From assembly GCA_016870195.1 (NCBI GenBank), contig VGCC01000004.1, forward strand, positions 1 through 36,842: DNA of 36,842 nucleotides, written 5' to 3'. Of the stretch, positions 21,195-36,840 are shown piece by piece (position 1 is the stretch's first letter; every line of letters starts with the position of its first letter). The translations under genes and the position numbers were made by a program. Below the pieces are notes generated by a model, which was not told the DNA's origin, searched no databases, and saw only the letters and a list, made by a program, of their open reading frames with translations. This DNA comes from Actinomycetota bacterium. Lineage in GTDB: Bacteria; Actinomycetota; Actinomycetes; S36-B12.

Positions 21195-21210
21195 TATTGG
21201 AGGAGACGTC

Positions 21211-22560
21211 ATGACGGTGGACCTAGCCGAACTCCGGCAGGAACTCCAGGATCGGGGGATCGATGTCCTCCGGCTGATCTACCCGGATGTCCTGGGCATC
21301 ACCCGATCCAAGGACCTCCTCGTCTCCCAGCTCGAGCGTGCAGCGGCGCACGGACCGGCCTTCTGCCAAGGCGTCTGGGTCACGAACACCCGTGGCGGCG
21401 TACTCGACGGGCACGGCAGCATTTCGGATGGTCTGCCCGATCTCGTCTCGCGTCTGGACGCGACCACCATCCGCACCGTCCCGTGGGAACCGGGACTGGC
21501 CTACGTCATTGCCGACGCGTTCGAACCCAATGGCGATCCGAGTCCCATCGCGCCCAGGTCGGTGCTCGCTCGGGTCCTCGATCGCTACGAGACCCTGGGC
21601 CTCGTACCTGTCACGGGGCCTGAACTCGAGTTCTACATCGCGCACCGACCCGAGGGATCCTGGACGCGAGTACTGAACAAGACCGGTCGCGTCTATACGA
21701 CGGGAGCCATGGTCGATCCCGACGGAGTCTTCCTCGAGATGTTGCGCATGATCGACCGTCTCGAGATCGGCGCATTCGCCGGTAATCACGAGTTCTCCCC
21801 CTCGCAGTACGAGATCAATCTCTGGCATTCCGATGCGCTGGATGCCGCCGATCGCACCTTCCTCTTCAAGACGGGCGTCAAGGACATCGCGGCTGCGCAG
21901 GGACTTCTTGCCACCTTCATGGGCAAGCCGTGGAACGACGAAGGGGGCAGTGGATTCCATCTGCACTTCTCGGTCACCGACGACGACGATGTCAATCGGA
22001 TGCACTCGGGTGATGGTGAGCTGAGCGATACAGCGCTGGCGATGATCGCTGGAATCATCGAGCATTCGGCAGCCCTCTCCGCGCTGACGAATCCGACGAT
22101 CAACGCGTTCAAGCGTCTCGGACCGGACACCCTCGCCCCGTACCGCGCCAACTGGGGTTACGACAACCGCAGCGCGATGATCCGCATCCCACCGGAACGC
22201 GGGCAGGGGACACGGCTGGAGTTGCGCATCGGCGATGGTGCCGCGAATCCCTACGTCATTGCAGCCGCCGTTCTCGCCGCGGCCCTCGATGGCATCGAAC
22301 GCGATCTGACGCCTCCACCGGCCCAAGCCGGATGGACGTACGAAGATGAGTCGGCCCCGGTGTTGCCGATGTCGCTGCAGGAGGCACTCGACGCTCTCGC
22401 CGCGGACACGCATCTGGCCGATGTGCTCGGCGCCACCTTCGTCAGCACCTTCGTCACCTTGAAGAAGGACGAGCTCGAGCGATACGCGGCCGAGGTCGAG
22501 GATTCGGTAACCCGCGATGTCACCCAGTGGGAGATCGACGAGTACATCGAGGACTACTAG
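21211..22560 (+). CDS. Glutamine synthetase-like gamma-glutamyl-amine ligase (copy 1)
   Basis: From ATG 21211 (GGAGGAGAC upstream) the product has 449 residues. It keeps the GS metal and ATP residues: GPELEFYI (E138, E140), NHEFSPSQYEINL (E194, E201), GSGFHLHFS (H250, H252), NPTINAFKRL and RIPPERGQGTRLELRIGDGAANPY. The N-terminal beta-grasp is shorter than in housekeeping GlnA, and the ammonium-site region is diverged, as in PuuA, IpuC and the aniline ligase AtdA1/TdnQ. These join glutamate to an amine using ATP. The adjacent amidotransferase fits removal later. The amine is unknown, and GlnA itself is unlikely given the context. Confidence 0.87.
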   Translation: MTVDLAELRQELQDRGIDVLRLIYPDVLGITRSKDLLVSQLERAAAHGPAFCQGVWVTNTRGGVLDGHGSISDGLPDLVSRLDATTIRTVPWEPGLAYVIADAFEPNGDPSPIAPRSVLARVLDRYETLGLVPVTGPELEFYIAHRPEGSWTRVLNKTGRVYTTGAMVDPDGVFLEMLRMIDRLEIGAFAGNHEFSPSQYEINLWHSDALDAADRTFLFKTGVKDIAAAQGLLATFMGKPWNDEGGSGFHLHFSVTDDDDVNRMHSGDGELSDTALAMIAGIIEHSAALSALTNPTINAFKRLGPDTLAPYRANWGYDNRSAMIRIPPERGQGTRLELRIGDGAANPYVIAAAVLAAALDGIERDLTPPPAQAGWTYEDESAPVLPMSLQEALDALAADTHLADVLGATFVSTFVTLKKDELERYAAEVEDSVTRDVTQWEIDEYIEDY

Positions 22561-22610
22561 GCCGAAACCGCGACTCAGGCGTCGATGGAGGATGTACTAC
22601 ATTGACGCAC

Positions 22611-22895
22611 ATGAGCGATACGGTAGGCCTGCGGGCCCTGCAGCAGAACGCGTCCGCGGTGGTGGCCCGGGTGGTGGCCGGCGAGGAGGTCGTGATCACG
22701 GATCGTGGCCGGCCGGTGGCGCGGATCGTTCCGTTGCAGCCGCGCCCACGGGGATTGCAGGAGTTGATCGATGAGGGCCTCCTCACTCCGGCAACGCGCT
22801 CGATCAGTGACCTGCCTCCTCCGATCGCCCTCTCGGGAGGTCCGACCGCGAGTGAGATCTTGGCGGAGATGCGAGAGGCGGACCGCGAAAGGTGA
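22611..22895 (+). CDS. Phd/YefM-type antitoxin
   Basis: The product has 94 residues. The N-terminal VGLRALQQNASAVVARVVAGEEVVITDRGRPVARIVPL is the Phd/YefM DNA-binding fold. The C-terminal ASEILAEMREADRER is the typical toxin-wrapping helix. Its stop overlaps the PIN toxin start (GTGA). It blocks the toxin and autoregulates the operon. The pair sits between two parts of the catabolic cluster and looks like an insertion. Confidence 0.9.
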   Translation: MSDTVGLRALQQNASAVVARVVAGEEVVITDRGRPVARIVPLQPRPRGLQELIDEGLLTPATRSISDLPPPIALSGGPTASEILAEMREADRER

Positions 22896-23284
22896 TCCAC
22901 TACATGGACTCCTCGGCTTTCATGAAGCTTGTGCTTCGCGAAGATCATTCCGATGCGTTGATCACATGGGTGGAGAGTGGTTCCCCGGACATCGCCTTAT
23001 CGGAGCTCGTCGTTGCTGAGTGCTTGAGAACTGCGCGGAGACTGGGTCCTCAGATCGTTGTGGAGACCCGAGCGGCGCTGGCCTCCTTTCGCATGCGGAC
23101 CATGAACGCGGAAATCTGGCGTTGGGCGGGCGAGATCGACCCTCACTCCCTCCGGACTTTGGATGCCCTGCATCTGTCGGTCGCCTTGAGTTTTGGTGCG
23201 CATCTCGAATCCGTAGTGACCTACGACAAGCGCCTGACAGAAGCCTGCACGGCGTACGGGATTCGGGTACTCGCTCCCGTGTGA
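22892..23284 (+). CDS. vapC: VapC-type PIN-domain toxin
   Basis: The product has 130 residues with the PIN acidic residues D6 (MDSSAFMK), E43 (VAECLR), D91 (TLDALHL) and D112 (TYDKRL), which bind Mg2+ for RNA cleavage. VapC toxins cut tRNA or rRNA when the antitoxin is lost. All key residues are present, so it should be active. It starts at a GTG overlapping the antitoxin stop and ends directly against the convergent LLM oxidoreductase gene with no gap. Confidence 0.92.
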   Translation: MIHYMDSSAFMKLVLREDHSDALITWVESGSPDIALSELVVAECLRTARRLGPQIVVETRAALASFRMRTMNAEIWRWAGEIDPHSLRTLDALHLSVALSFGAHLESVVTYDKRLTEACTAYGIRVLAPV

Positions 23285-24214
23285 TCACTGAGCATCGACC
23301 CGTGCGATCACGTCGCGGCAGAACCGCCCATGGTCGCTCGGATCGTCGATGAAGATGCTCGGCTTGATGCAGAACGTGGTGAATCCCAGAGCCATTTGAC
23401 GTGGGATCTCTTCAAGAGCCTCGGGAAGTGGTGCCACCGAATCGTCGTCTGGGAACCTGACACGAGTGCCACCAACGAGTTCGAACTCCTCCCAACTCCG
23501 TCCAAGTTGAGCGAGGCTGGACTTGAGGAGCGCCACATCGTCCTCGTGCACCCGGCCCACCGGATGGAAGCCGGAGCCGTAACGGGCGAGCCGCTCGATG
23601 ATCTTCGGGTGGACCCGCTCCCCACCGAACCACATCGCCGGTCCCGCCGGTCGCGTCGGCTTGGGTTCGAGGTAGACGTCGTCGAAGCTGAAGAATTCAC
23701 CGTGATGTGTCACGGGTGACGTGGACCAGACCTTCGACCAGATATCCAATTCCTCATCGAGGATCCGACCACGTGACGTGAAGTCAATGCCGAGTGCCGC
23801 GTATTCATCGCGGTGCCAACTGACTGTGGGTTGGATGACGAGCCGTCCCTCGGACATCAGGTCGAGTGCCGCAAGATCATGCGCGAGAACGAGTGGGTGA
23901 CGCAGCGGTGCGATCAGCGCGATGGCACCGATGCGGATGCGTGTGGTTGCCGCGGCGATCGCACTCAAGAGGACGATGTTGGACGGCCAGGGCGTGGCCG
24001 GATCCTGGTTGCCGGGCATCGCGTAGTCGCGCGGATTCGCCATGCGGCCTTCGCTGCCGGCACTGGGTCCCAGGAGCACGTGATCACTCACCATGACCAT
24101 GTCGAAGCCCGCGTCCTCGGCCTCCTGGGCCATGCGCACGATCCCGCGCAGATCACGCGGATCGAGCATGGTGTGGTTCTCGGTGAGAACACTGACCATG
24201 CGTGGCGGGGCCAT
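23285..24214 (-). CDS. LLM-class (luciferase-like) F420 or FMN oxidoreductase
   Basis: The product has 309 residues of the bacterial luciferase-like TIM barrel: AEDAGFDMVMVSDHVLLGP, TTRIRIGAIALIAPLRHPLVLAHDLAALDLMSEGRLVI, SRGRILDEELDIWSKVW and GPAMWFGGERVHPKIIERLARYGSGFHPVG. The family includes F420-dependent dehydrogenases and two-component FMN monooxygenases; the cofactor cannot be settled here. It follows the acetoacetate-decarboxylase-like gene by 10 bases on the same strand, so the two share a promoter. No Shine-Dalgarno is clear, and M6 (24199) is an alternative start. Confidence 0.87.
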   Translation of the reverse strand: MAPPRMVSVLTENHTMLDPRDLRGIVRMAQEAEDAGFDMVMVSDHVLLGPSAGSEGRMANPRDYAMPGNQDPATPWPSNIVLLSAIAAATTRIRIGAIALIAPLRHPLVLAHDLAALDLMSEGRLVIQPTVSWHRDEYAALGIDFTSRGRILDEELDIWSKVWSTSPVTHHGEFFSFDDVYLEPKPTRPAGPAMWFGGERVHPKIIERLARYGSGFHPVGRVHEDDVALLKSSLAQLGRSWEEFELVGGTRVRFPDDDSVAPLPEALEEIPRQMALGFTTFCIKPSIFIDDPSDHGRFCRDVIARVDAQ

Positions 24215-24224
24215 GGGTGGTGGC

Positions 24225-25022
24225 TCAGACCGAAGCGGAGTTATCCGTCAGGAGCTTTCCCCCTGCGAAGGTCACTCCAACCTCGCGGTAGTAACCGCCG
24301 ATGATCTCCTCGACCGGGAGCAGGCTTGCGGGCTGGTCCCAGGGGGAGTCGTGCAGTTCGAGTTCGGCGTCACCGCGCCACGGATCGCCGAGATCTGCAT
24401 CGACACCGGACATCGTCACGATCTGCGACAGAGACATCCCCTCACCTGCGATCGAGGGCATACAGCGGTGATGGACCATGGGGTGCCCATTGACGAAACC
24501 ATTCTTGTCGCACTTCTCGCGCAGGGTGACCTTGGCCGATGCGAGCCGATGGTCGTAGGCAGCGAGGGATGCGCCAAAGGTTCCTCCCGCCGCAACGCGC
24601 GGAGCGGCCTTTCCGTGGTGGAACGCGCGGGTCACGTAGATGCTGCCCAACTTCTTCGGATACCCCTGGAACCAGCCGCGACCGATGGCGAAGTCCGTTG
24701 TGACCCAGATGAGAACACACCGGCTGTAGGTGACGCCCTGGTACGCGGCACGCACGACGACGAAGGCCTCGAGGTACTGCGCACGCGACGGGTCGAGGAG
24801 CTCCTCGCGATCGGCGCTGCAGGATTGCCAATCCGCCCAGATGAACGCAACCGCCCCCGGATCCTCGGGTGCGAGGTCGAGTTCGTCGGGAAGGATCGCG
24901 CGCACGTTAGCCGGATCCGTGCGGTACTCGACGGTCAGCAGGGTTCCCGAGTAGTACCACGGCATCGGGGGCACGAGGGCGGTGCGACCGTCGGGGGTGA
25001 ACGGGGGGAGGAATCCAGCCAT
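24225..25022 (-). CDS. Acetoacetate decarboxylase-fold protein
   Basis: The product has 265 residues. YPKKLGSIYV (121-130) carries the Lys that forms the Schiff base in acetoacetate decarboxylase. MPWYYSGTLLTVEYRTDP at the N-terminus and WQSCSADREELLDP also fit the family. Members decarboxylate beta-keto acids or act as aldolase-dehydratases; the substrate here is not known. It leads a two-gene operon with the LLM oxidoreductase. TAGGCT lies six bases before the ATG, giving a leaderless transcript, and the shared operator (25042-25059) covers the -35 region. Confidence 0.85.
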   Translation of the reverse strand: MAGFLPPFTPDGRTALVPPMPWYYSGTLLTVEYRTDPANVRAILPDELDLAPEDPGAVAFIWADWQSCSADREELLDPSRAQYLEAFVVVRAAYQGVTYSRCVLIWVTTDFAIGRGWFQGYPKKLGSIYVTRAFHHGKAAPRVAAGGTFGASLAAYDHRLASAKVTLREKCDKNGFVNGHPMVHHRCMPSIAGEGMSLSQIVTMSGVDADLGDPWRGDAELELHDSPWDQPASLLPVEEIIGGYYREVGVTFAGGKLLTDNSASV

Positions 25023-25094: not shown

Positions 25095-25748
25095 GTGGCG
25101 CGCGCAGCTCGGGGACGTCCGGCCCGGCTGAGTCGGGACACCATCTGTCAGGCCGCGCTCGACCTCCTCGCCGACACCGATGCCGCCACCTTCAGCCTCC
25201 GGGCACTCGGTGACCGGCTCGGGGTCGACGCGACAGCGATCTACCGACACTTCCACGACAAGGACGACCTCCTCCGCGAAGTGGGGGACCGTGCCCTGGC
25301 TCCGGTGACGCGTGGTTTTACCACCTCCGCGGATGCGCGTGATGACATCCGGCGCATGTGCACGCGCCTGCGTAAGACGATGCTGCGCAGTCAAGTGGCG
25401 CTGACGCTCACGGCCTTCGGACCAACGCGGCGCGGAAACGAATTACGGATCACCGAGGTGATGCTCGACGCGCTGAGTCGGTGCGGTCTCAGCGAGGAGG
25501 AGACCGTCATGGCGTATCACGTGCTCATCGAGTACACGATCGGCTCCGCAACCCTGGACGGCCCCCTGGCTGCACCGGGGGCGGACAGGCGTGGCACGTA
25601 CCGCACCTGGCGTGCGGATTACGCGGGACTCCCCGTCGAGCAGTACCCCACGTCGGTGCGGATGGCGCAGAAGCTCTACCCCTCGAGCGATGTCGTGTTC
25701 GCTGCGGGACTCGATGCCCTGATCGCTGGTCTGACCGGGCGTCAGTAG
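25095..25748 (+). CDS. TetR-family transcriptional regulator
   Basis: The product has 217 residues from GTG 25095. The N-terminal helix-turn-helix covers about 13-60: SRDTICQAALDLLADTD, FSLRALGDRLGVDATAIYRHFHDKDDLLREV. The rest is a helical ligand and dimer domain of the tetracycline-repressor C-terminal type. The transcript looks leaderless. It lies next to the operator at 25042, so it may repress itself, the decarboxylase-like gene and the four other sites in the window. It converges with a 7-base overlap on the second GS-like gene. Confidence 0.92.
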   Translation: MARAARGRPARLSRDTICQAALDLLADTDAATFSLRALGDRLGVDATAIYRHFHDKDDLLREVGDRALAPVTRGFTTSADARDDIRRMCTRLRKTMLRSQVALTLTAFGPTRRGNELRITEVMLDALSRCGLSEEETVMAYHVLIEYTIGSATLDGPLAAPGADRRGTYRTWRADYAGLPVEQYPTSVRMAQKLYPSSDVVFAAGLDALIAGLTGRQ

Positions 25749-27010
25749 ACGCGCGAGTACTCGTTCTGCTCCCAGTCGGTGACTGCGGCGACCCAACGCC
25801 CGCACTCGCGCCGCTTGAGTTCCAGGTAGACCTCGATGAGGTCCGGATGGAAATACGAGCACAGGACCGAATCCGCTTCGAGTGCATCGAGTGCTTCGGA
25901 GAGCGAGTGCGGTGTGTGTCGGTCGGTGTTCGGTGCCGAGTCTGCGTCACCGACCTGCGGCTCGGGAAGGGTCAGGTTCCGCTCCACACCGGAGAGGCCG
26001 GCGGCGAAGAGCGCCGCAGTAAGCAGATGGGGTGAGGCCGCACCATCCGCCATCCGGTGTTCGATGCGCGTGGTGGCGCCGCGCTGTCCCGGTATGCGCA
26101 CGGTGGAGATGCGGTTGTCCAGGCCCCAGTTGGCCCAGTAACCACTCAACATGCCGGGGACCAGTCGCTTGTACGAGTTCACCGTGGGTCCCGCGAATGC
26201 CGCCAGTGCCTTATGGTGATCGAGGAGCCCGGCGACGAAGGACTTCGCTACGTCGGAGAGGCCATTCGTATCCGACTCGTCGATGAGCGCATTGCGTCCG
26301 GATGCATCGTTCAGGCTCATGTTGACGTGCATGCCGCTGCCCACGGCGTCGCCGAAGGGCCGGGCCATGAACGTGATGTCGATTCCGTTTCGGCGCGCGA
26401 CTTCGCGAGCGAGGATGCGGAAGAGAAAAGCGGCATCGGCCGCGCTCATCGCATCCTGGTAGTGCAGCGAGACTTCGACTTGGCTCGGGGTGAACTCGCT
26501 GTTGACCCCCTCCACTTTGAGGTCCGCGGCCTCGGCGGTCTCGGCGATCAACTCGAGGGTTCCGGTGGGATCGGCACCCGGACCAATCCCGTAGACCCGA
26601 TGGTCGGGGACGGGGAGTTTGGTCAACGGAGTGCGACCGGCGAGGAGGAAGAACTCCATTTCATATCCGCTCACCGGCGTGAGCCCGTGCTCACTCCACC
26701 GGTCCATCACCGACCGCAGCGCACGACGTGAGTCCAGGGGGAGCGGGCGACCGTCGGCGAAGTGCAGGAGTGCCATGCCCACCTGACGGTCACCCCACGG
26801 TCGCAGGGTTCCGTCCTCGAATCTGGCCTCCATGTCGGGGAAGCCGGAGCTGGTCGAGTAGTTCGGTGTCTCGAGGAACTCCAGGTCGAGGCCCTGCACC
26901 ATGACCGTGATGGCGTAGTGGGTGGGGTGATCACGACGGGCGGCCGGAACGGTCTTGCCGTGTGCGAGTCCGAGCAGATCCGGGAAGAGGATGTCGATCT
27001 GGGAGGACAC
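25742..27010 (-). CDS. Glutamine synthetase-like gamma-glutamyl-amine ligase (copy 2)
   Basis: From GTG 27010 (GAGGAG eight bases upstream, two bases after the NicX-like stop) the product has 422 residues. Metal and substrate residues are kept: GYEMEFFL (E117, E119), NSEFTPSQVEVSL (E172, E179), GSGMHVNMSL (H228), GPTVNSYKRL, and RIPGQRGATTRIEHRMADGAASPH. The N-terminus is short and starts inside the beta-grasp domain. It is diverged from copy 1 and probably uses a different amine. Being last in the NicD-NicX operon, it may activate an amino-substituted heterocycle or a ring-fission product amine. Confidence 0.85.
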   Translation of the reverse strand: MSSQIDILFPDLLGLAHGKTVPAARRDHPTHYAITVMVQGLDLEFLETPNYSTSSGFPDMEARFEDGTLRPWGDRQVGMALLHFADGRPLPLDSRRALRSVMDRWSEHGLTPVSGYEMEFFLLAGRTPLTKLPVPDHRVYGIGPGADPTGTLELIAETAEAADLKVEGVNSEFTPSQVEVSLHYQDAMSAADAAFLFRILAREVARRNGIDITFMARPFGDAVGSGMHVNMSLNDASGRNALIDESDTNGLSDVAKSFVAGLLDHHKALAAFAGPTVNSYKRLVPGMLSGYWANWGLDNRISTVRIPGQRGATTRIEHRMADGAASPHLLTAALFAAGLSGVERNLTLPEPQVGDADSAPNTDRHTPHSLSEALDALEADSVLCSYFHPDLIEVYLELKRRECGRWVAAVTDWEQNEYSRVY

Positions 27011-27012
27011 GA

Positions 27013-28068
27013 CTACATCTCCTCGCCCGCGGCCACGCCCACCAGGCGCCCCCGGTCCACGACCTGGTGGTCATCCAGGAAGACGCTGCACTCGCGCATG
27101 GGAATGTCGAAATGACATACGCTGAAACGCTCGGCGTTCTCGTTGGCGCCGGTGCTGTACATGAAGTTCCCCTCGAAGGCGCGTGCCTCGGTGCCGTTGA
27201 ACTGCGACCGGTCGTAGAGCTCGAGGTAGTCCCAGCGGGCCGCGGGATTCATTCCCCATCCGATGTGCGAGGTGGCGTATGCATCGGCATCGAACGCGGA
27301 CATATACGACTTGAGCATCTCAGCCTGGTAGCCGTTGCCCTCGATCGCCACCACGAAGTCGTCCTCGATCGTCAACGTGATCGGATCCTGCACGTAATGC
27401 TTGAAGGTGATGTTGATGTCGCCGGGAGCGAGGACGATCTGCCCATTCACGCGATGGCGCGCCGGGAAGGCGAGCACCAAGCCCCCCGGCCAGTGCGCGA
27501 TCTCCCCCGGTCCCTGGATCACGCCCGTGGATCCCGCGGTGAAAGCGTCGGCGAGTTCGACGTGGATGTCCGTTCCGATATCGCTGGTGGCACGCATGAC
27601 TGTGGACGAACGCAGTACGTCATGCGATTTCGCCACGCGTCGTGCCATGTCCTCGTCGTGGGGGAGGCGCTCGAAGATCTCCGGATGCTCGTTGCTGATC
27701 ATGAACACCGACGTTCCTGCGCCGAGGATGTCCCGCAATTCCCGGGAGTGCAGGAGTCCTTCCACGGTCACGTCGATGACGAGTGGCACCGAGGACACGG
27801 CTGCAACCGCTCCGGCGTGACCCTTGAGCGCCAGCGACGTTCCCGTCGAACGCAACGCGACCGGCCCACCGTTGGCGGGTGTTCGCATCACCACCTCGAA
27901 AGGCCGGGCTCCGAGGAACTCCGCGGCGAGGATCGATGTGGCCACCAGTTCGGGCCGACTATCGCTTTCCGAGAGGATCACGCACTCGTCGCCGGCCTTG
28001 AGGCCGTTGAGCGCGAATTGCTGCGCGAAGCGCTGCACCCACCGCCACTCGGTGTTCCCAGTCCTCAC
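27013..28068 (-). CDS. nicX: NicX-like 2,5-dihydroxypyridine 5,6-dioxygenase
   Basis: The product has 351 residues from GTG 28068, which overlaps the upstream hydrolase stop (GTGA) and follows GGGAGGTC. From memory it parallels Pseudomonas putida NicX: SHIGWGMNPAARW with H268, ARAFEGNFMYSTGAN, and CHFDIPMRECSVFLDD with H319 and D321, matching NicX iron ligands H265, H318 and D320. NicX opens 2,5-dihydroxypyridine to N-formylmaleamate using Fe(II) and O2. The fold belongs to the M29 peptidase-like group, but the conserved iron residues and the neighbouring hydrolase favour a dioxygenase. The ring substrate could be another hydroxylated pyridine. Confidence 0.82.
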   Translation of the reverse strand: MRTGNTEWRWVQRFAQQFALNGLKAGDECVILSESDSRPELVATSILAAEFLGARPFEVVMRTPANGGPVALRSTGTSLALKGHAGAVAAVSSVPLVIDVTVEGLLHSRELRDILGAGTSVFMISNEHPEIFERLPHDEDMARRVAKSHDVLRSSTVMRATSDIGTDIHVELADAFTAGSTGVIQGPGEIAHWPGGLVLAFPARHRVNGQIVLAPGDINITFKHYVQDPITLTIEDDFVVAIEGNGYQAEMLKSYMSAFDADAYATSHIGWGMNPAARWDYLELYDRSQFNGTEARAFEGNFMYSTGANENAERFSVCHFDIPMRECSVFLDDHQVVDRGRLVGVAAGEEM

Positions 28069-28850
28069 GGCATGACCTCCCGCCAGTGACGCGCGACCGC
28101 AGTGTTCACAGCATCCTCGGCCTCCAGGTTCAGCACATGACCGACCCCCGGGACGACCTCCAGACGACCATTCGGCAGCAGGTCGGCGATCGCCTGCGCG
28201 TAGGACACTGGCGTCTCGTCGTCGAGTTCCCCGACCAGGACGAGCGTGGGGGTGGTGATCGAGGGGAGGAGCCCCCGGCTGTCATGGCTGGCGATGGTGG
28301 ACAGCGAATCCAGGAGGCCTGCGAGCGGAACGCGGCCCATCGCCTCGATCGCTTCGGGGAGGACGTGCGCGCCATTGGGGCCCACGAGCGAGGGGAGGAT
28401 CAGAGGGGCGGCGGCCGCCGGGCTGCCCATCTGCTCGAGGCCGGCGAGCCGTGCGGCGCGCCATTCATCCGGATCCGTTCCATCGAGCCCGAACTTGGGG
28501 CTGGTGCACAGCAGGGTCAGGCTGCGGATGCGATCGGGGGCCAGAGCCGTTACGTACTGGGCGATCATCCCGCCGAAGGACATGCCGACCAGATCGACGG
28601 GTTCGCCAGGCGAGACGGTGTCGATGAGGGAGAGGGCGGCGCGGGCGTAGGCATCGAAGGTGGTGTCGAGCACCGGAGTCGATTCCCCGTACCCGGGTGC
28701 ATCCCATGCGACACATCGCCGCAGCTCGGACATAACCTCCAATTGCGGACGCCACGCGGTGCGTCCACCCCCGAGCCCGTGCAGGAACACCGCGACCGGA
28801 CCCTGGCCCGCCTCCCGCCATGCCACGGGCGAGGCATCGACGTCGATCAC
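28065..28850 (-). CDS. Alpha/beta hydrolase, NicD-like N-formylmaleamate deformylase candidate
   Basis: From GTG 28850 the product has 261 residues, near the length of NicD. The triad is S91 in VGMSFGGM, D210 in GELDDETP and H238 in GVGHVLNLE; the oxyanion loop is FLHGLGGG. NicD hydrolyses N-formylmaleamate, the NicX product, to maleamate and formate, and here the gene overlaps the NicX-like start. Other meta-cleavage hydrolases share this fold, so the assignment rests on position. The GTG is set by a TTGACA, 17 bases, TACCGT promoter that ends six bases before it. A longer reading frame upstream crosses that promoter. Confidence 0.78.
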   Translation of the reverse strand: MIDVDASPVAWREAGQGPVAVFLHGLGGGRTAWRPQLEVMSELRRCVAWDAPGYGESTPVLDTTFDAYARAALSLIDTVSPGEPVDLVGMSFGGMIAQYVTALAPDRIRSLTLLCTSPKFGLDGTDPDEWRAARLAGLEQMGSPAAAAPLILPSLVGPNGAHVLPEAIEAMGRVPLAGLLDSLSTIASHDSRGLLPSITTPTLVLVGELDDETPVSYAQAIADLLPNGRLEVVPGVGHVLNLEAEDAVNTAVARHWREVMP

Positions 28851-28925
28851 GTGGGAACGGTAGGCACCACACGCACTATTGTCAACGCTGTTGACAAAAG
28901 TCCCGCGGTCCATCACGATCGCGTC
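28851..28925. promoter_or_regulatory. Mirrored divergent leaderless promoters sharing a palindrome
   Basis: The palindrome TTGTCAAC-GCT-GTTGACAA (28879-28897) contains a TTGACA -35 on each strand. On minus, TTGACA (28880-28885) is 17 bases from TACCGT (28857-28862), then six bases to the hydrolase GTG. On plus, TTGACA (28891-28896) is 17 bases from CACGAT (28914-28919), then six bases to the ATG at 28926. A repressor dimer on the palindrome would block both. Confidence 0.75.
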
Positions 28926-30158
28926 ATGACACCACCAGTCGCAGCCCACGAAGGCACCCGGGTGCACACCGGCGTGCCTGGGAACTCCGGCCCCGTGAAG
29001 TCCCGGGACGAACTCGTCACAGTGATCCGCGATCTCGGCCCGTCCTTCCGCGAACGCGCGGTCGACATCGATCGCAACGCGGTCTTCCCGTTCCAGAACT
29101 TCGCCGATCTCCGCGATGCCGGATTCCTCGCACTCTGCGTGCCGGCCCACTACGGCGGTCTCGGTGCGAGTTACGCGGACTACGTTCGCGTGTCGGCGGA
29201 GATTGGTCGCTACTGCGGCTCGACAGCGCTCACCTTCAACATGCACAACGCGACCATGCTCTGGGCGGGGGAGGTCAGCGACCTACTGGACATGAGTCCT
29301 GAGCAGCGCGAGACCCACGAGCGGCGCCGCGGGGAGATGTTCCGCGGAGTCGTCGAGGATGGCGAGATCCACTCGCAACCATTCAGCGAGGGGCTCAACC
29401 CAGGGGCACTTGCAGGTGTCGCAACGAAGGCCGAGTTGACCGACGGCGGGTATCTCGTCACCGGGCGGAAGATCTTCGCCTCCCTGTCGGGAGCCGCACA
29501 CCGCTACAACGTCACCTGTCAGGTACCGGGCGAGGAGTTCCTGAGATTGCTGTCGGTGCGTGCCGATGCACCCGGCGTCGAGATCGTCGACGACTGGGAC
29601 CCGCTCGGAATGCGTGGAACAGTCTCGCGCACGCTCCTCCTGAAGGAAGTTTTCGTTCCCTTCGACGACGAGATCATGCCGGGTGGGATGTACGACCAGG
29701 CGGCCAACCGGTATCCCTTCCTCTTCATGTCCTTGGCGCCGTCCTATCTCGGGCTGACCCAGGGGATCATCGACTTCACCCGCGATTACCTGCGTGGTGA
29801 GTTGCCGGGTGCGGCCACGGGCACGGGTCGCCGCGACAACCCGATCAAGCAACTCGGCTGGGCCGAGATGCAGATCAAGTTCGAACAGAGCCGTGCTCTC
29901 CTGTTCACCGCGGTTGACAACGCGCACTTGGATCCCGACGTCGACACCATGGTGCAGGCGTGGGCCGCCGTCTACACCGTCATGGAGCACGCGAACCAGG
30001 TCGCGAGCATTGCGGTGCGCGTCTGCGGCGGCCAGTCCATGTTGAAGCACCTGGCGCTCGAGCGGATGTATCGCGATTCGCGGCTCGGCTCGCTGATGCT
30101 CCCGTGGAGTGCGGAGGTCGCCCTCGAGCGCATTGGCAAGGCCCGTCTGTATGACTGA
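28926..30158 (+). CDS. Acyl-CoA dehydrogenase-fold flavoprotein
   Basis: From ATG 28926 the product has 410 residues; the much longer frame starting at 28086 is antisense to the hydrolase. The ACAD plan is visible: helical N-terminus, DLRDAGFLALCVPAHYGGLGASYADY, the TGRKIFASLSGAAHRYNVTC beta domain, and the C-terminal helices ending VCGGQSMLKHLALERMYRDSRLGSLMLPWSAEVALERIG. The usual catalytic Glu region is diverged, and the tail resembles flavin monooxygenases of the DszC/HsaA type as well as dehydrogenases. Either an acyl-CoA oxidation or an aryl hydroxylation is possible. It overlaps the CoA ligase gene by 8 bases, which leans towards an aryl-CoA or acyl-CoA substrate. Confidence 0.82.
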   Translation: MTPPVAAHEGTRVHTGVPGNSGPVKSRDELVTVIRDLGPSFRERAVDIDRNAVFPFQNFADLRDAGFLALCVPAHYGGLGASYADYVRVSAEIGRYCGSTALTFNMHNATMLWAGEVSDLLDMSPEQRETHERRRGEMFRGVVEDGEIHSQPFSEGLNPGALAGVATKAELTDGGYLVTGRKIFASLSGAAHRYNVTCQVPGEEFLRLLSVRADAPGVEIVDDWDPLGMRGTVSRTLLLKEVFVPFDDEIMPGGMYDQAANRYPFLFMSLAPSYLGLTQGIIDFTRDYLRGELPGAATGTGRRDNPIKQLGWAEMQIKFEQSRALLFTAVDNAHLDPDVDTMVQAWAAVYTVMEHANQVASIAVRVCGGQSMLKHLALERMYRDSRLGSLMLPWSAEVALERIGKARLYD

Positions 30159-31743
30159 GCCGACGGGCCACGTCGATACCTTCACCCGCGATCGACTTCC
30201 CCCGCGGCAGCAGTGGCCAGTCCTCCTGCGCGACAAAGAACCCCCTCGCATCAACGCCTGTGTGGAACTCCTCGACCGCACCATCAATAGGCATGGTGCT
30301 GACCGAACGGCATTCATCGCTGCCGACGGGACGTGGACCTACGGCCAATTACTCGACGACGTGCAGCGATGCGCGCATGTTCTCCGCTCAGCGGGGGTGG
30401 TGTCAGGTTCGCGTGTGCTCCTCCGGGCACCGAACAATGGGTGGCTGGCGATCGCCTGGCTTGCGACCCTTCGACTCGGCGGGGTAGCGGTCACGACCGC
30501 GCCGTTGCTCCGGGCGATGGAACTCGATCCGATCGTGGACATCTCCGCGCCCGCCGTCGCCCTGGTCGACCACCGATTCCTGGACGAGTGGGAGAAGGTC
30601 GCCGGATTCGCGGGATCGACGATCGTCGTCGGGTCCGGCGCAGCGGACTCCCTCGAATCACGCGCGCACGCGGCCCATCCCCTTGTCGATGTCGCCGATA
30701 CCGCTGCCGACGACATCGCGCTTCTCGCGTTCACCTCCGGCACCACCGGCAAGCCGAAGTCCACGATGCACGAACACCAGGACATCCTTGCGATCGCCGA
30801 CACCTTCAGTACGCACATCGTCAAGCCCACATCGGATGACGTGTTCGGCGGGAGTCCGCCTTTGGCCTTCACCTTCGGTCTCGGTGGACTCGTGATCTTC
30901 CCGATGCGCATCGGCGCGTCGTCGGTGCTGCTCGAGAACGGCGCACCGCCTCACCTGCTCGCGGCGATCGATCGGGAGCGCATCACCTGCCTCTTCACCG
31001 CCCCCACCGCGTACCGCGCGATGCTCCCGATGCTGACGGAGCACGATGTGTCGTCGTTGCGCCGGTGCGTGTCCGCGGGTGAGACGCTGCCCGAGTCGAC
31101 GTGGCGGGCCTGGTTCGACGCCACCGATGTGCCGCTCATCGATGGCATCGGTGCCACCGAGATGCTGCACATCTTCATCTCCGCCGCCGATGAGGACATC
31201 CGTCCGGGGAGTACCGGTCGGGTGGTCCCCGGATATGAAGCGGCCGTCCTCGACTCGGACCTGGTGCCGATGGCTCCCGGCACGGTGGGCCGACTCGCAG
31301 TGCGTGGCCCGACGGGCTGCCGGTATCTCGCCGACGATCGCCAGACCGCGTACGTGCAGGGTGGCTGGAACATCACCGGTGACCTCTACAGCATGGACGC
31401 CGACGGCTACTTCACCTACGTCTCGCGCGCCGACGACCTGATCGTCTCCAGCGGGTACAACATCGCGGCACCGGAGGTGGAGAACGCACTTCTGATGCAC
31501 CCCGCCGTGGCGGAGGTCGCGGTCGTGGGTGCACCCGATGCGGATCGGGGGACTGTCGTTAAGGCGTTCGTGCGCTGCACGGAGGGATACGCCGGTTCCG
31601 AGGCACTCGCCGTGGAACTCCAGGACCACGTCAAGGCCACCATCGCGCCCTACAAGTACCCCCGGCTTGTCGAGTTCGTCGCCGACCTGCCCAAGACCGT
31701 CACGGGGAAGCTGCAGCGCCACCGTCTCAAGGCCGTGGAATAG
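30151..31743 (+). CDS. Aryl-CoA ligase (benzoate/2-aminobenzoate-CoA ligase-like)
   Basis: From ATG 30151 the product has 530 residues of the ANL superfamily. The P-loop motif FTSGTTGKPKSTMHEHQ (194-210) is clear, followed by GIGATEMLHIFIS, the hinge region DLYSMDADGYFTYVSRADD, SSGYNIAAPEVE and the catalytic Lys in KTVTGKLQRHRL. The start DRLPPRQQWP and the GATEMLHIF motif resemble benzoate- and 2-aminobenzoate-CoA ligases. It adenylates an aromatic carboxylate and links it to CoA. It is coupled to the ACAD-fold gene, so both probably handle one CoA-bound intermediate. Confidence 0.88.
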   Translation: MTEPTGHVDTFTRDRLPPRQQWPVLLRDKEPPRINACVELLDRTINRHGADRTAFIAADGTWTYGQLLDDVQRCAHVLRSAGVVSGSRVLLRAPNNGWLAIAWLATLRLGGVAVTTAPLLRAMELDPIVDISAPAVALVDHRFLDEWEKVAGFAGSTIVVGSGAADSLESRAHAAHPLVDVADTAADDIALLAFTSGTTGKPKSTMHEHQDILAIADTFSTHIVKPTSDDVFGGSPPLAFTFGLGGLVIFPMRIGASSVLLENGAPPHLLAAIDRERITCLFTAPTAYRAMLPMLTEHDVSSLRRCVSAGETLPESTWRAWFDATDVPLIDGIGATEMLHIFISAADEDIRPGSTGRVVPGYEAAVLDSDLVPMAPGTVGRLAVRGPTGCRYLADDRQTAYVQGGWNITGDLYSMDADGYFTYVSRADDLIVSSGYNIAAPEVENALLMHPAVAEVAVVGAPDADRGTVVKAFVRCTEGYAGSEALAVELQDHVKATIAPYKYPRLVEFVADLPKTVTGKLQRHRLKAVE

Positions 31744-31854: not shown

Positions 31855-33402
31855 ATGTCACAACGGGAAAACCTTCCCACGTCAGACCAGGCGTTGCAGC
31901 CTGGTGATCCGGAGACCAAGTCCACCAGCCTGAGGAAAGGTTCCCTCGGTCTGATCGGCATCGTCTTCTTCGTCGTCGCAGCGGCGGCGCCACTTGCCGG
32001 CATGACCGGCGCCTTCCCCGTCGCCATGGGGCTCGGTGTCGGCTCCGGGGCGGCCGGCATGTACGTCGGCGTCGGCCTTCTGCTGCTCATCTTCAGCGTT
32101 GGCTACGCAACCATGACCCACTACGTGACGAACACGGGCGCGTTCTTCGCATATGTGGGACGTGGTCTGGGCATCACCTGGGGCGTGGGTTCGGCCTTCG
32201 CATCGGTGGTGGCCTACATCGCGGTCATGTGGGGCGTGCTGGGCTTCCTCGCGGGACAGCTCACGTTCCAAATGGAGGCGAAGTTCGGTCTCGCCCTCCC
32301 GTGGTGGGTCTACGCATTCATCATCCTCGCCGCGGTATTCGCGCTCTCGGCCGCATCGGTCGATGTGGGTGCGAAGGTTCTCGGCGTCTTGCTGGCCATC
32401 GAGTTGCTCGGACTGGTGGTTCTCGCCCTAGCGATCCTCTTCCAGGGAGGTGGGCCCGACGGCCTTGACTTCGGTGCGTCCTTCTCACCGGCGAGCATCT
32501 TCACCGAAGCGATCCCCGGAGGTATCGGTATCGCATTCGCGTTCGCACTCGCATCCTTTATCGGCTTCGAGGCGACCGCGATCTACGGCGAGGAGTCACG
32601 GGATCCAAAGCGCACGGTGCCGAGGGCCACGTACACCTCGGTGCTGCTCGTCACCGTACTCTTCGCGCTCGTCGGATGGGGGTTGGTGTCCGGCCTCGGT
32701 GCCACCGACATCCAGACGAAGGTTTTCGAGGTCACCGCGATCGACGGCGTGCCCCTGGCCGATCCATCGGCAATCCTCTTCGGTCTGAGCACGGAGTTCG
32801 TCGGCTCATGGCTGACGGAGATCTTCAGCTGGTTGATCCTGACCTCGCTGTTCGCCGCCACGCTCGCATTCCAGAACAGTGCTGCGCGCTACTTCTTTGC
32901 GATGGGGCGTGCGGGAGTCCTTCCCAAGGCCCTGGATCGGACGAACAAGGCCCAGGCGCCGATCATGGCGACCGGACTCGTCACCGTCCTCGGGGTGATC
33001 ATCGTCGTCTTGTCGATGATCTTCGCCTGGGATCCGATCCTGAACATCTTCTACTGGTTCGGGGCTGTTGCGGTGATCGCGATCGTGCTGACCGAGATCC
33101 TGGTGAGCATCGCCGTGATCGTGTACTTCGCGCGCACAAAGCAGGACACGCGCGTGTGGAATACGAAGATCGCGCCGATCATCGCCATCATCGGTCTCGC
33201 CGTGGGCGAATACATGCTCATGGCGCACTTCAACCTGTTCTCCGGTACCTCGTCAACACCTGACGCGCTTGCCTGGGAACACAACACGACAGGGTGGATC
33301 CTCATCCTGTTGCCCTTCGTATTATTCCTCATTGGCCTCATCGTGGGTGCCTCGCGCAAGGGCAAGGAGAACTACGACGCTGTGCACAACTTCGCCAGCT
33401 GA
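31855..33402 (+). CDS. APC-superfamily amino acid/amine permease
   Basis: From ATG 31855 (GGAGGAGAG upstream) the product has 515 residues with about 12 membrane helices. TM1 is LGLIGIVFFVVAAAAPLAGMTG with the APC unwound GAFP-type break, and SFIGFEATAIYGEESRDPKRTVPRATY is the conserved TM6-loop signature. It is a proton- or sodium-coupled importer of an amino acid or amine. A shared operator copy lies just upstream, linking it to the P450, GS-like and meta-cleavage genes, so it may import the cluster's substrate. A strong terminator follows. Confidence 0.9.
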   Translation: MSQRENLPTSDQALQPGDPETKSTSLRKGSLGLIGIVFFVVAAAAPLAGMTGAFPVAMGLGVGSGAAGMYVGVGLLLLIFSVGYATMTHYVTNTGAFFAYVGRGLGITWGVGSAFASVVAYIAVMWGVLGFLAGQLTFQMEAKFGLALPWWVYAFIILAAVFALSAASVDVGAKVLGVLLAIELLGLVVLALAILFQGGGPDGLDFGASFSPASIFTEAIPGGIGIAFAFALASFIGFEATAIYGEESRDPKRTVPRATYTSVLLVTVLFALVGWGLVSGLGATDIQTKVFEVTAIDGVPLADPSAILFGLSTEFVGSWLTEIFSWLILTSLFAATLAFQNSAARYFFAMGRAGVLPKALDRTNKAQAPIMATGLVTVLGVIIVVLSMIFAWDPILNIFYWFGAVAVIAIVLTEILVSIAVIVYFARTKQDTRVWNTKIAPIIAIIGLAVGEYMLMAHFNLFSGTSSTPDALAWEHNTTGWILILLPFVLFLIGLIVGASRKGKENYDAVHNFAS

Positions 33403-33480: not shown

Positions 33481-34662
33481 ATGACCGTGAACGCGCAGGT
33501 GCGCCCGAACGTCATCGTCGTGATGGGCGTCATCGCGGTGATCGCCTTCACCCTGCGAGTTGGCCTCACGAGCGTTCCCTCGGTCCTCGAGAGCATCCAG
33601 GGATCGACAGGATGGAGCGATGTCACGCTGGGCGCGTTGACGACGATCCCGGTCCTGTGCATGGGTGTCTTCGCGCTCCAGGTGCCGCGCTTCGCTCGGC
33701 GCATCGGGACCCGCGCCGCGGTGACGTTCGGACTCGTTCTCCTCGCGGTGGGGATGGCTGTTCGCGGACTGGAATCCCTGCCATATCTGCTCTTCGTGGC
33801 AGCCTTCCTGGTCGGCCTAGGGATCGCGGTCGTCGCCGGCCTCGTGCCTGCGCTCGTGCGCTCGGTGATGCCCGCGGCGACCGGTCTCGGCTCGGGAATC
33901 TGGACCGCGGTGATGTTCACCGGCGCAGCGCTGGGTGGAGCGCTCACTCCCACCTTCGCTCTGTGGTTCGGATCCTGGGGGTGGGCCCTGGCGGTCTGGG
34001 CAATTCCCGCTGTGCTCGCCGTCCTCCTCTGGTGGCCGACGCCGACGCCGCAGTATGCAGCCATGGCGACATCCCCGGTGCGAATTCGGGAACTCCCATG
34101 GCGCGACCACCGTGCCTGGGCATTGACCCTCTACTCGGCGACGAACTCCATCGTGTTCTACAGCACCGTGGCCTGGTTGGCACCCTCCTACGTCGAACGC
34201 GGAAACTCGCAGGCGGCAGCGGGCGGACTCTTCGGTGTGTACGTCATCGGCACGATCGTCGCCGGTCTCCTCCTGCCCTGGATCGGCCATCGAGTACGAG
34301 GACGCAGATTCCTGCTCGCGATCGTTGTCGTACTGGCCTCCGCAATGCTGCTGGTGATCGGATTCGCACCCGATACCGCAACACTCCCTGTCCTCATCCT
34401 CTTCGGATTCGCATTGAGTGGTTCCTTCGCGCTAGTGCTCGCGTTGCTCAGCGAATACGGCAGCGATGCGGCTGGCTCCGCGCGGCTCACCGCCATGGTC
34501 TTGTTCGTGACCTATGTCCTCGCCGCACTCGGGCCACTGTTCATCGGTGCGCTGATCGCCGCCACCGACTCGTGGCCCCTGGTCTATTCGGTGCTGGCCA
34601 TTCTCTGCCTGGCGCAGGCGGCATTCGTGGTGCCCCTACGGCGCGACGTCAGGATCGGGTGA
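33481..34662 (+). CDS. MFS transporter, CynX/NimT-like
   Basis: The product has 393 residues with about 12 membrane helices, and the loop RFARRIGTRAAVTFGL after TM2 matches the MFS motif A region. The first segment, FTLRVGLTSVPSVLESIQGSTGWSDVTLGALTTIPVLCMG, resembles the CynX/NimT (cyanate, 2-nitroimidazole) group. It may export a toxic intermediate or take up a small polar compound. TAGGGT lies eight bases before the ATG with no Shine-Dalgarno. It converges on and overlaps the fourth P450 gene by 14 bases. Confidence 0.85.
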   Translation: MTVNAQVRPNVIVVMGVIAVIAFTLRVGLTSVPSVLESIQGSTGWSDVTLGALTTIPVLCMGVFALQVPRFARRIGTRAAVTFGLVLLAVGMAVRGLESLPYLLFVAAFLVGLGIAVVAGLVPALVRSVMPAATGLGSGIWTAVMFTGAALGGALTPTFALWFGSWGWALAVWAIPAVLAVLLWWPTPTPQYAAMATSPVRIRELPWRDHRAWALTLYSATNSIVFYSTVAWLAPSYVERGNSQAAAGGLFGVYVIGTIVAGLLLPWIGHRVRGRRFLLAIVVVLASAMLLVIGFAPDTATLPVLILFGFALSGSFALVLALLSEYGSDAAGSARLTAMVLFVTYVLAALGPLFIGALIAATDSWPLVYSVLAILCLAQAAFVVPLRRDVRIG

Positions 34663-35878
34663 CGAGCCGACCAGGCAGTGACGTGATTCCATTGACGAAA
34701 TTCGACGGGGTCCGCACCATCGGCCCGGTGGATTCGAAGCGGAGGCCGCGCTCCACAATCCCCTCGAGCAGGATGCGGATCTCGAGCCTGGCGAGTGGTG
34801 CACCGAGACAGTGATGCGGGCCCTGGGCTCCGAAGGAAATCATCTTGGGCCTGATGGGACGCTCGACATCGAAGGTCAGTGGCTCATCGAAGACCCGTTC
34901 GTCAAAGTTCGCCGAGGCGTACCAGATGACCACTTTGTCGCCCTCGGAGATTGCTACATCGTGGAGGACTGTGTCGCGGGTGGCAGTGCGTCGCATATGC
35001 AGCACAGGTGACGCGTAGCGGATGACTTCTTCGACGGCGTTCGGGATCAGATCGGGGTCCCGATGAAGTTTCTCCAACTCCTCCGGATTGTCCATGAACG
35101 CCCGAATGCCATTGCTGATCGCGGTCCGGGTGGTCTCGTTCCCGGCGAAGACGAGGAGCTGAAACATGTTCGCGTACTCGGCTTCGGTCAGTTGGTCGCC
35201 GTCCACCATGCCGGTGACGAGCGCGGTGACCACGTCGTCGTGGGGATTCTGGCGACGTTCCTCGCCGAGCTTCCTGCCGTAGTCGAACAGGGCGAATGCC
35301 GCGGGTGAGTTGAACGGCAGGAGTTCCAGCGGAGTGGTGTTCCCGTAGGCGTCGGGTGGTAGTTCCGCGCCGCCGGAGACCAGGTGATCGGTGAGCTCGA
35401 CCATGAGATCCGCGTCCTCGGCGGGAACACCGAGGATGCCGACGAGGACGCGAATGGGTAGTGGAGCGGAAATCGCTTCCACCACATCGATCTCCTGCTC
35501 GGCCAGCGCGGCATCGAGCAATGTGCCGGTGATGCTGCGTGCCGTCCCCTCGTAGTCGCGCACGCGTCGCCCAGTGAAGGCGGGCATCCCGAGCTTTCGG
35601 AGCCGCACATGCTCGGGGGGATCGGTATCGATGAGCGAGCGGCGCGCTTCCATCTGCTCCGGAGTGAGATCCCAGATATTCGACATGCCGCGGGCACTCG
35701 AGTACGTCGCCGCATCGCGCGTCACGGTGACCAGGTCCTCGTAGCGCGTCACCGACCAGAACGGACGACCCTCGTACGTGAGGGATGCCACGGGCTCGTT
35801 ATCGCGCATCCGGCGGAACACGTCGTGGGGTATCCCCCGGGCATAGGTGGAGGGGTCGGTGATGTCGACCGCGGTCAT
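34649..35878 (-). CDS. Cytochrome P450, CYP124/125/142-like clan (second copy)
   Basis: A complete 409-residue P450. It has AGNETT (245-250), ExxR at E284-R287, and FGAQGPHHCLG with heme ligand C357. The PVLHMRRTATRD segment and the SNFVNGI tail match the P450 at 19158, so the two are paralogues or close relatives. It overlaps the alcohol dehydrogenase by four bases (ATGA), so its product is probably an alcohol that the dehydrogenase oxidises next. The substrate is unknown. It needs an external ferredoxin, the nearest being at 14961. Confidence 0.92.
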   Translation of the reverse strand: MTAVDITDPSTYARGIPHDVFRRMRDNEPVASLTYEGRPFWSVTRYEDLVTVTRDAATYSSARGMSNIWDLTPEQMEARRSLIDTDPPEHVRLRKLGMPAFTGRRVRDYEGTARSITGTLLDAALAEQEIDVVEAISAPLPIRVLVGILGVPAEDADLMVELTDHLVSGGAELPPDAYGNTTPLELLPFNSPAAFALFDYGRKLGEERRQNPHDDVVTALVTGMVDGDQLTEAEYANMFQLLVFAGNETTRTAISNGIRAFMDNPEELEKLHRDPDLIPNAVEEVIRYASPVLHMRRTATRDTVLHDVAISEGDKVVIWYASANFDERVFDEPLTFDVERPIRPKMISFGAQGPHHCLGAPLARLEIRILLEGIVERGLRFESTGPMVRTPSNFVNGITSLPGRLVTRS

Positions 35879-36840
35879 GACACCGCGCTCGGAACGATGA
35901 CGAACCGACCCTGCACGTCTCCTTTGGCGAGTCGATCATGGGCACCCTGGATGTCGGTGAGTGAGATCACCTCGATCGGGGAGTGGAGCGGGTGTCGTTG
36001 GGCGAGCTCGACCAGTTCGCCCAACTGCGCACGCGTACCCCACACCGAGGTCATGAAGCGCGCTTCGTGCGGCACGGCACCGAAACCGAAGGGGATAGTG
36101 CCTCCGTACAGACCGACCACGACCGCGATGCCCTGGCGAGCAACGTGATCGCGTGCGGTGACCAGGGTCGCCTCCGCCCCGACGAAATCGATGACTGCGG
36201 TGAACGTTCCCTCGACCTCTCCCGGAGCGACGACCTCCTGGGCCCCGAGGTCGCGCGCGATCGCACGCTTGGCATCCGAGGCATCCACAACCGTGATGTG
36301 TGCGTTGGACTGGGCGGCGAGGAACTGCAGACCGAACTGGCCCAATCCACCCGCGCCGATCACGAGTGCCCGCGGTGCGCCTGCCTCCCGGAGCGTGGGG
36401 AGGACGTGGCTGACGGCGCGGTAGGCGGTGAGACCGCCACAGGCCAAAGGAGCCGCATGCGACGGATCGAGGTCCCCGAGCGGAACGAGATACCCCTCGT
36501 CGGGCACGGCCATGAGTTCGGCATAACCGCCATCGCGAACCAACCCCGCCTCGGTCGCGTTTGGGCAGATCATCTCCTGTGCGGACGAGCACGCCCAGCA
36601 GTCCGGCTTCCGGCAGCCCCAACACGCGTAGACCAGGACGGGGCCGAGCCGGGGGTGACGCGCGGCCACCTCGTGCCCGAGGATGACCGGCAGTGTCGTC
36701 GGATAGTCCCCGGCGGCCGCATGGAGGTCCGAATGGCAGATCCCGCAGGCGAGTACTTCCACCACCGTGTCCCGGCGGGGGTCGGGCACCTCCTGGAGTT
36801 CCAGGGGACTGCCCGGCTCGGTCAGCACCACAGCGCGCAT
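35875..36840 (-). CDS. Zinc-dependent alcohol dehydrogenase (MDR family)
   Basis: The product has 321 residues. The catalytic zinc site is C32 (ACGICHSDLH) with H56 and E57 in GHEV. The structural zinc site is Cys-rich (C73/C76, C81, C84, C92). The NAD(P) loop is VIGAGGLGQFGLQ (about 155-167). It oxidises alcohols or reduces aldehydes. The start ATG lies two bases from the window edge, so an upstream start cannot be excluded. It is first in a two-gene unit with the P450, suggesting consecutive oxidation of one substrate. Confidence 0.88.
   Translation of the reverse strand: MRAVVLTEPGSPLELQEVPDPRRDTVVEVLACGICHSDLHAAAGDYPTTLPVILGHEVAARHPRLGPVLVYACWGCRKPDCWACSSAQEMICPNATEAGLVRDGGYAELMAVPDEGYLVPLGDLDPSHAAPLACGGLTAYRAVSHVLPTLREAGAPRALVIGAGGLGQFGLQFLAAQSNAHITVVDASDAKRAIARDLGAQEVVAPGEVEGTFTAVIDFVGAEATLVTARDHVARQGIAVVVGLYGGTIPFGFGAVPHEARFMTSVWGTRAQLGELVELAQRHPLHSPIEVISLTDIQGAHDRLAKGDVQGRFVIVPSAVS

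Follow-up and report, generated by a model that had tools for sequence, protein, structure and literature searches.

NicX of Pseudomonas putida, which cleaves 2,5-dihydroxypyridine (DHP), binds its iron through His265, Ser302, His318 and Asp320; DHP is held by Glu177, His189, His105 and Leu104, while Arg293 positions Asp320 (PMC7910607). Glu177 touches N1 and O1 of DHP, its alanine mutant has greatly reduced activity, and DHP is the sole substrate reported for the enzyme (PMC7910607). Ligases of organic amines, such as NpaA1, resemble glutamine synthetase (GS) and have lost the flap and ammonium-site residues (PMC11335346). The stretch of DNA analysed here (the window) comprises 36,842 nucleotides (nt) of contig VGCC01000004.1 from an uncultured, freshwater-type Actinomycetota bacterium, whose genome assembly of 2.13 Mb in 87 contigs is 99% complete. 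On its minus strand, genes for an alpha/beta hydrolase, a NicX-like protein and a GS-like ligase (GS2) stand in tandem at 25742-28850. The original prediction, made from the sequence of the window, held that overlapping stops and starts bind these three genes together; the stop of the hydrolase gene does overlap the GTG start of the NicX-like gene by 4 nt, but a gap of 2 nt separates the NicX-like stop from the GS-like start. These genes, and two others needed for the argument, are as follows.

27013..28068, minus strand: predicted NicX-like non-haem Fe(II) ring-cleaving dioxygenase, GTG start (phmmer match to 7cn3, AlphaFold model, iron ligands)
28065..28850, minus strand: alpha/beta hydrolase (Pfam Abhydrolase_1, 1.5e-25)
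25742..27010, minus strand: GS2, putative glutamine-synthetase-like gamma-glutamyl-amine ligase (Pfam Gln-synt_C, 1.8e-90)
28926..30158, plus strand: divergent partner, putative flavin monooxygenase of acyl-CoA-dehydrogenase fold (best solved match 5z8t)
30148..31743, plus strand: aryl-coenzyme A (CoA) ligase, anthranilate-CoA-ligase-like (best solved match 4wv3, 1.7e-91)

The NicX-like protein matched the solved P. putida NicX (7cn3) with an E value of 4e-57 over 332 residues (phmmer against the PDB) and shares about 35% identity with it. No other convincing match was found in the PDB, where the searches turned up no solved dioxygenase of this fold besides NicX, and no model in Pfam (threshold E 0.001) or NCBIfam matched the protein. 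The AlphaFold model (predicted local distance difference test score 93) was overlaid on NicX, as had been proposed, and gave Foldseek template-modelling (TM) scores of 0.88-0.91 with root-mean-square deviations of 2.0-2.4 to 7cn3 and 7cup, compared with a TM score of about 0.55 to the M29 aminopeptidases PepS/AmpT. The iron site is present. Three iron ligands had been said to be kept, and the alignment showed four: His265, Ser302, His318 and Asp320 of NicX correspond to H268, S305, H319 and D321, and all four are invariant in 39/39 homologues of the window clade. His105, Leu104 and Arg293 are likewise invariant in these 39 sequences, and His189 is kept in 38/39.

The residue that differs is Glu177. 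Its position is Ser (S180) in the window protein and in 36/39 clade homologues, Val or Gly in the others and never Glu; in the alphaproteobacterial sequences (Ensifer, Aminobacter, Shinella) it is Thr. Canonical NicX proteins, including three of the same phylum whose genes sit beside NicD/NicE/NicF, have Glu or Gln there. A maximum-likelihood tree showed a branch with 100/99 support that splits the window clade from canonical NicX; with M29-like proteins included, a first tree showed terminal branches of 8-10 changes per site, and it was dropped and rebuilt without those proteins. In M29-like proteins of the phylum, the counterpart of His265 is Glu, with Glu or Lys-type changes in this region, and Ser302 is missing. 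Neither grouping with M29 aminopeptidases nor loss of the iron site, the two outcomes named beforehand as speaking against a NicX relative, was seen. The complete iron site and NicX fold, together with the separate clade and the altered residue, therefore lead us to expect that the protein cleaves rings as an iron dioxygenase of NicX fold, probably with a substrate other than DHP; the missing Glu177 agrees with a substrate that carries another group on its N1 side. A role of the operon in the degradation of nicotinate or DHP is unlikely.

At least 546 relatives of the NicX-like protein were found, the best 80 of which are 49-94% identical to it, and none was found on viral contigs. The nearest named relatives are metagenome-assembled genomes (MAGs) of actinobacteria. 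Gene neighbourhoods were compared across 83 loci from 80 named genome contigs and plasmids; 34 loci had at least 5 kb of sequence on each side (well-flanked), and a partner was counted if it lay within 8 kb of the NicX-like gene. Among the well-flanked loci, the acyl-CoA-dehydrogenase-type monooxygenase was near the NicX-like gene in 33/34, the alpha/beta hydrolase in 31/34 and a GS-like gene in 21/34, and NicC was found in none, NicF in none and NicE in one. The absence of NicC, NicF and NicE from the window, noted before, was borne out, and no NicE homologue was found in the window's genome. The arrangement recurs in 12 further genomes when the family and the order are searched, and in other phyla. 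The operon is thus common to at least two bacterial phyla, and its arrangement is not due to chance.

Some of these loci deserve separate mention. Public MAGs titled Bifidobacterium breve bear the cluster at 71-83% identity (L069, L070, L071 and L104), a label that is almost certainly wrong. In an Acidimicrobiales locus, a cupin, an FAH-family gene and a NicE homologue lie near the NicX-like gene.

The partner genes were then compared with characterised proteins. The hydrolase has Ser109 in a GxSxG motif and His256 in a GH motif (numbering from 28904). It had been called NicD-like; against two NicD proteins encoded beside NicX genes it scores 23 and 28 bits, with 18-22% identity in the alignment, a likeness at the level of the fold only, and the protein is not recognisably NicD. 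The best solved match of the monooxygenase, both by sequence and by fold, is the flavin-containing monooxygenase 5z8t; an alignment to a true acyl-CoA dehydrogenase shows no catalytic Glu, the protein being nitrososynthase-like at that place. A flavin reductase gene adjoins the monooxygenase gene in L080-L085, Ensifer, Aminobacter, L143 and L144, and none was found in the window. Taken together, the match to 5z8t, the missing dehydrogenase Glu and the adjacent reductases suggest that the protein be read as the oxygenase of a two-component flavin monooxygenase.

GS2 scores below all NCBIfam GS cut-offs. It keeps the metal, ATP and glutamate residues (E129, E131, E212, E220, H269, R321, R339, R344 and R359); the flap Glu327 is replaced by Leu in GS2 (Leu/Phe in the alignment), and the DGSS loop does not align, so that no Asp50 equivalent can be assigned. 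This residue pattern is in line with a gamma-glutamyl-amine ligase of organic amines, and the earlier expectation of an organic-amine step does fit. The GS-like gene is followed by one for a PuuD-like gamma-glutamyl hydrolase in both Flexivirga and Ornithinimicrobium. In Flexivirga, a GS-like gene of proteobacterial type (65%) stands beside an actinobacterial NicX-like gene, which suggests that the association with a glutamylating enzyme came about, or was renewed, on more than one occasion.

The CoA ligase suggests a link of the operon to aromatic degradation. It scores 311 bits to anthranilate-CoA ligase (4wv3) compared with 257 bits to benzoate-CoA ligase, and lies under the cut-off of the NCBIfam benzoate-CoA ligase family (356.5 versus 375). 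The Shinella ligase, 51% identical to that of the window, scores 303 bits to anthranilate- and 266 bits to benzoate-CoA ligase; its neighbours are genes for tryptophan 2,3-dioxygenase, a hydrolase resembling kynurenine formamidase (recognised by eye), kynureninase and a bifunctional salicylyl-/2-aminobenzoyl-CoA hydroxylase, and this ligase/kynureninase/hydroxylase block directly adjoins the NicX-like operon. On an Ensifer adhaerens plasmid, fragments of the kynurenine-formamidase-like gene, which is intact in Shinella, lie next to the operon (L061, 21928-22341).

Co-occurrence was examined in the window's family, in 11 genomes with the NicX-like gene and 17 without it. The CoA ligase was present in 10/11 of the former and 0/17 of the latter, as was a gentisate-type cupin dioxygenase (10/11 versus 0/17; by genus, 6/6 versus 0/7), and homologues of salicylyl-/2-aminobenzoyl-CoA 5-hydroxylase (NF006101) were present in 10/11 versus 3/17. 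In this and related genomes the hydroxylase genes lie with the gentisate-type cupin, an FAH hydrolase, a carbon-nitrogen hydrolase and an indolepyruvate-oxidoreductase-like gene. One genome (G008) carries the CoA ligase outside the NicX-like cluster, on the contig that also bears the hydroxylase and cupin genes, and in Aminobacter orthologues of the cupin, FAH hydrolase and carbon-nitrogen hydrolase stand, with a flavin reductase, directly before the NicX-like gene. Tryptophan dioxygenase showed no link to the NicX-like gene (8/11 versus 14/17), and the genus g9 has ligase, cupin and hydroxylase and lacks tryptophan dioxygenase. Because tryptophan dioxygenase does not track the NicX-like gene, a purely kynurenine-derived role was rejected.

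We put at about even the chance that the cluster encodes the central enzymes of an upper catabolic pathway not yet characterised, in which monooxygenation, NicX-type cleavage of a nitrogen-containing ring and hydrolysis lead to an anthranilate-type acid; the ring opened would probably be benzo-fused. From the gene set, we infer the substrate, the order of the steps and the purpose of the glutamylation as follows. An APC-family permease would import an amine-bearing aromatic compound, and GS2 would gamma-glutamylate the imported amine. The monooxygenase, dependent on reduced flavin, would hydroxylate the nitrogen-containing ring, the NicX-type Fe(II) dioxygenase would open it beside the new hydroxyl group, as NicX does with DHP, and the hydrolase would cleave the product of ring opening at an N-formyl, N-acyl or C-C bond. 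The 2-aminobenzoate-type acid released would be activated by the anthranilate-CoA-ligase-like enzyme, its CoA ester hydroxylated at C5 by the salicylyl-/2-aminobenzoyl-CoA 5-hydroxylase and its ring opened by the gentisate-type cupin; this lower pathway, encoded elsewhere in the genome, would also take in the FAH and carbon-nitrogen hydrolases. The presence of two ring-cleaving dioxygenases in one pathway suggests a substrate with two rings, such as an indole or quinolone derivative. The N-CH=C(OH) unit that NicX cuts in DHP also occurs in indoxyl, where cleavage would yield N-formylanthranilate. More tentatively, we propose that a NicX-fold iron dioxygenase opens a benzo-fused nitrogen heterocycle (indole or quinolone type), acting on a gamma-glutamylated amine or beside it. 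The pathway, which would form anthranilate, would be one not described before and common among Acidimicrobiia, freshwater actinobacteria and some proteobacteria. The open-access papers covered by the literature search held no description of this gene set, and homarine and 4-aminopyridine, which were weighed as substrates, had no described match in that literature.

Several observations weigh against the favoured reading. A GS gene is missing from 13/34 well-flanked loci, indicating that glutamylation is not essential everywhere, and the CoA ligase was found in only 16/83 loci, other lineages having remotely similar ligases. The lower-pathway hydroxylase scores as salicylyl-CoA 5-hydroxylase, and salicylate/gentisate could thus be the node in place of anthranilate. 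Furthermore, most of the genomes are MAGs with short contigs, and the Fisher values for co-occurrence ignore shared ancestry, which makes the p-values too small and leaves them as a guide only.

Other substrates would account for part of these data. It is possible, but rather unlikely, that the NicX-like enzyme opens a monocyclic benzenoid ring of the hydroquinone or p-aminophenol type, for example 5-hydroxyanthranilate; a carboxyl group in place of N1 of DHP would explain the change from Glu177 to Ser, and the hydrolase would remove a formyl group from carbon. The para contacts H105 and H189 are kept and only the N1/O1 contact is lost (contacts from PMC7910607), and the anthranilate-CoA ligase and 5-hydroxylase genes co-occur; however, the co-occurring gentisate-type cupin would already cleave that ring, so that two enzymes would compete for it. 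More doubtful is an N-substituted or amino-substituted hydroxypyridone, in which the smaller residue 177 would make room for the N-substituent and GS2 would use the amine before or after ring opening. Pyridone cleavage is the closest known chemistry (PMC7910607), a GS-like ligase and an amine permease fit an amine, and the FAD-oxidoreductase and aminomethyltransferase genes in the Aminobacter NicX-like neighbourhood hint at N-methyl chemistry there; yet no NicF/NicE-like pair of amidase and maleate isomerase lies by the operon, the window's genome has no NicE homologue, and the linked genes indicate 2-aminobenzoate chemistry. An amino-substituted pyridine as the starting compound, which the original prediction had suggested, likewise found no direct support, the linked genes indicating a benzenoid 2-aminobenzoate-type intermediate and not maleamate derived from a pyridine.

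An ordinary DHP dioxygenase in a rearranged nicotinate or hydroxypyridine pathway would agree with the identity to NicX, with the full set of iron ligands and with the retention of most pocket residues, but we consider it very improbable, as all clade members sampled have lost Glu177, which near-normal activity on DHP requires, canonical NicX of the same phylum forms a separate group with NicD/NicE/NicF, and the hydrolase is not NicD-like. That the protein is an M29-type aminopeptidase or a degenerate relative is scarcely credible: NCBI annotates its relatives as 'peptidase M29', but its TM score is 0.9 to NicX versus about 0.55 to M29 peptidases, and it has the full iron site, including the Ser302 equivalent that M29-like proteins of the phylum lack. 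NicX chemistry on a new ring, the other possibility raised at the outset, is supported by the iron site, the NicX fold, the separate clade, the changed substrate residue and the different gene context.

The operon and the monooxygenase gene diverge from a common promoter region, and the remaining features around them are:

28879..28897, no strand: operator-like palindrome TTGTCAACGCTGTTGACAA, inside the divergent promoter region 28851-28925
25095..25748, plus strand: TetR-family regulator, convergent with GS2 (Pfam TetR_N/TetR_C_1)
31855..33402, plus strand: APC-family amino acid/amine permease, conserved in the cluster (Pfam AA_permease, 1.6e-21)
23285..25022, minus strand: LLM F420-type oxidoreductase and acetoacetate-decarboxylase-like (ADC-like) protein, recurrent neighbours (Pfam/NCBIfam)
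34649..35878, minus strand: cytochrome P450, recurrent neighbour in family members
35875..36840, minus strand: zinc alcohol dehydrogenase, recurrent neighbour in family members

The core GTCAACnnnGTTGAC of the palindrome TTGTCAACGCTGTTGACAA, which would be expected 0.01 times in the window by chance, is found again at this position in relatives with diverged flanking sequence. Among 30 genomes, WGTCAACNNNGTTGACW was found in 14/15 with the NicX-like gene (in 13 at the NicX-like locus) and in 1/15 without it, and the reversed pattern, used as a control, was found in none. The adjoining TetR protein is the likely candidate for its reader. A scan for sigma-70 promoters and terminators was uninformative. 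Sites elsewhere (ribD in G000, the end of an inositol gene in g9) lie mostly inside unrelated genes and were taken as chance. In another genome (G027), a perfect operator core stands just before an FMN-reductase/flavin-reductase pair at the hydroxylase locus (L186 11682 = G027:C1:26682), a possible regulon member supplying reduced flavin; no confirmation of this site came from relaxed operator scans at other hydroxylase loci.

Across the 83 loci, TetR was near the NicX-like gene in 23/83, the ADC-like gene in 23/83 and the LLM gene in 11/83. A gene for an MFS transporter comes after the permease gene in the window. Past the right end of the window, on the same contig (L026), a third GS-like gene (GS3) and a second class-I glutamine amidotransferase gene follow the P450 and alcohol dehydrogenase genes. 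After these two, the stretch L026 925-7439 goes on with a CaiB-type CoA transferase, an acyl-CoA dehydrogenase, an aldehyde dehydrogenase and GntR; several of its genes recur near the NicX-like gene in Acidimicrobiia (the acyl-CoA dehydrogenase 73-74% identical).

At 15204-18453 and 19158-22560, the window also contains homoprotocatechuate-type genes (FAH-family, LigB dioxygenase, aldehyde dehydrogenase and MarR); a second GS-like gene adjoins them, as do genes for a class-I glutamine amidotransferase and a P450. This block resembles a gamma-glutamylated aromatic-amine route of its own, possibly tyramine-like; as its genes are inconstant neighbours of the NicX-like cluster, it was handled as a separate module. 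A Phd/YefM-type antitoxin and PIN-domain toxin pair (22599-23284) lies between GS1 and the LLM genes. At 5195-6272, a FlgN-like gene overlaps an open reading frame whose first 36 residues match the N-terminus of flagellar rod/hook proteins and whose tail does not resemble FlgK, possibly a remnant or fusion. An open frame of 505 residues on the minus strand (12212-13729), beside a ferredoxin-reductase-like gene, had no Pfam match.

Taken together, the operon is real, widespread and coherent; sequence and structural model confirm a NicX-type dioxygenase, and a new ring as its substrate is supported. The NicX-like protein belongs to a large sister clade of NicX, in which the iron site is unchanged, one contact to the substrate differs and the partner genes form a fixed set. 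The substrate class is testable and would bring another ring system within the reach of NicX chemistry; a function would be assigned to genes annotated 'peptidase M29' and 'acyl-CoA dehydrogenase', and uncultured aquatic actinobacteria would gain a new nitrogen-heterocycle or aromatic-amine trait.

Four described systems come closest. The conversion of indole to anthranilate by the iif/WHOP pathway shares the initial flavin oxygenase with flavin reductase and the anthranilate product; the part of the account consulted describes no NicX-type enzyme, hydrolase or GS-like ligase (PMC12538310, citing Sadauskas 2017). The quinaldine pathway of Arthrobacter sp. Rue61a shares its logic with the favoured route, having a monooxygenase, a ring-opening dioxygenase, an alpha/beta-hydrolase amidase, an anthranilate-CoA ligase and a 2-aminobenzoyl-CoA monooxygenase/reductase; its described logic includes no GS-like ligase, and its ring opener is HOD, a cofactor-free enzyme of alpha/beta-hydrolase fold, whereas here it is an iron enzyme of NicX fold (PMC3534580). 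The aromatic-amine gamma-glutamylation by NpaA1 and AtdA1 shares a GS-like ligase that lacks the ammonium-use residues and keeps those for ATP, glutamate and metal; in those routes a Rieske dioxygenase comes next and yields a catechol-type diol, whereas here the ligase is accompanied by a NicX-type enzyme and a monooxygenase of acyl-CoA-dehydrogenase fold (PMC11335346). NicX of P. putida KT2440 (PDB 7cn3/7cnt/7cup) shares the fold, His265/Ser302/His318/Asp320, His105, Leu104, His189, Arg293 and an adjacent alpha/beta hydrolase; the window clade differs in its separate branch, in Glu177 changed to Ser/Thr and Cys76 to Gly, and in its partners, which are a flavin monooxygenase, a GS-like ligase and a CoA ligase in place of NicC/NicE/NicF.

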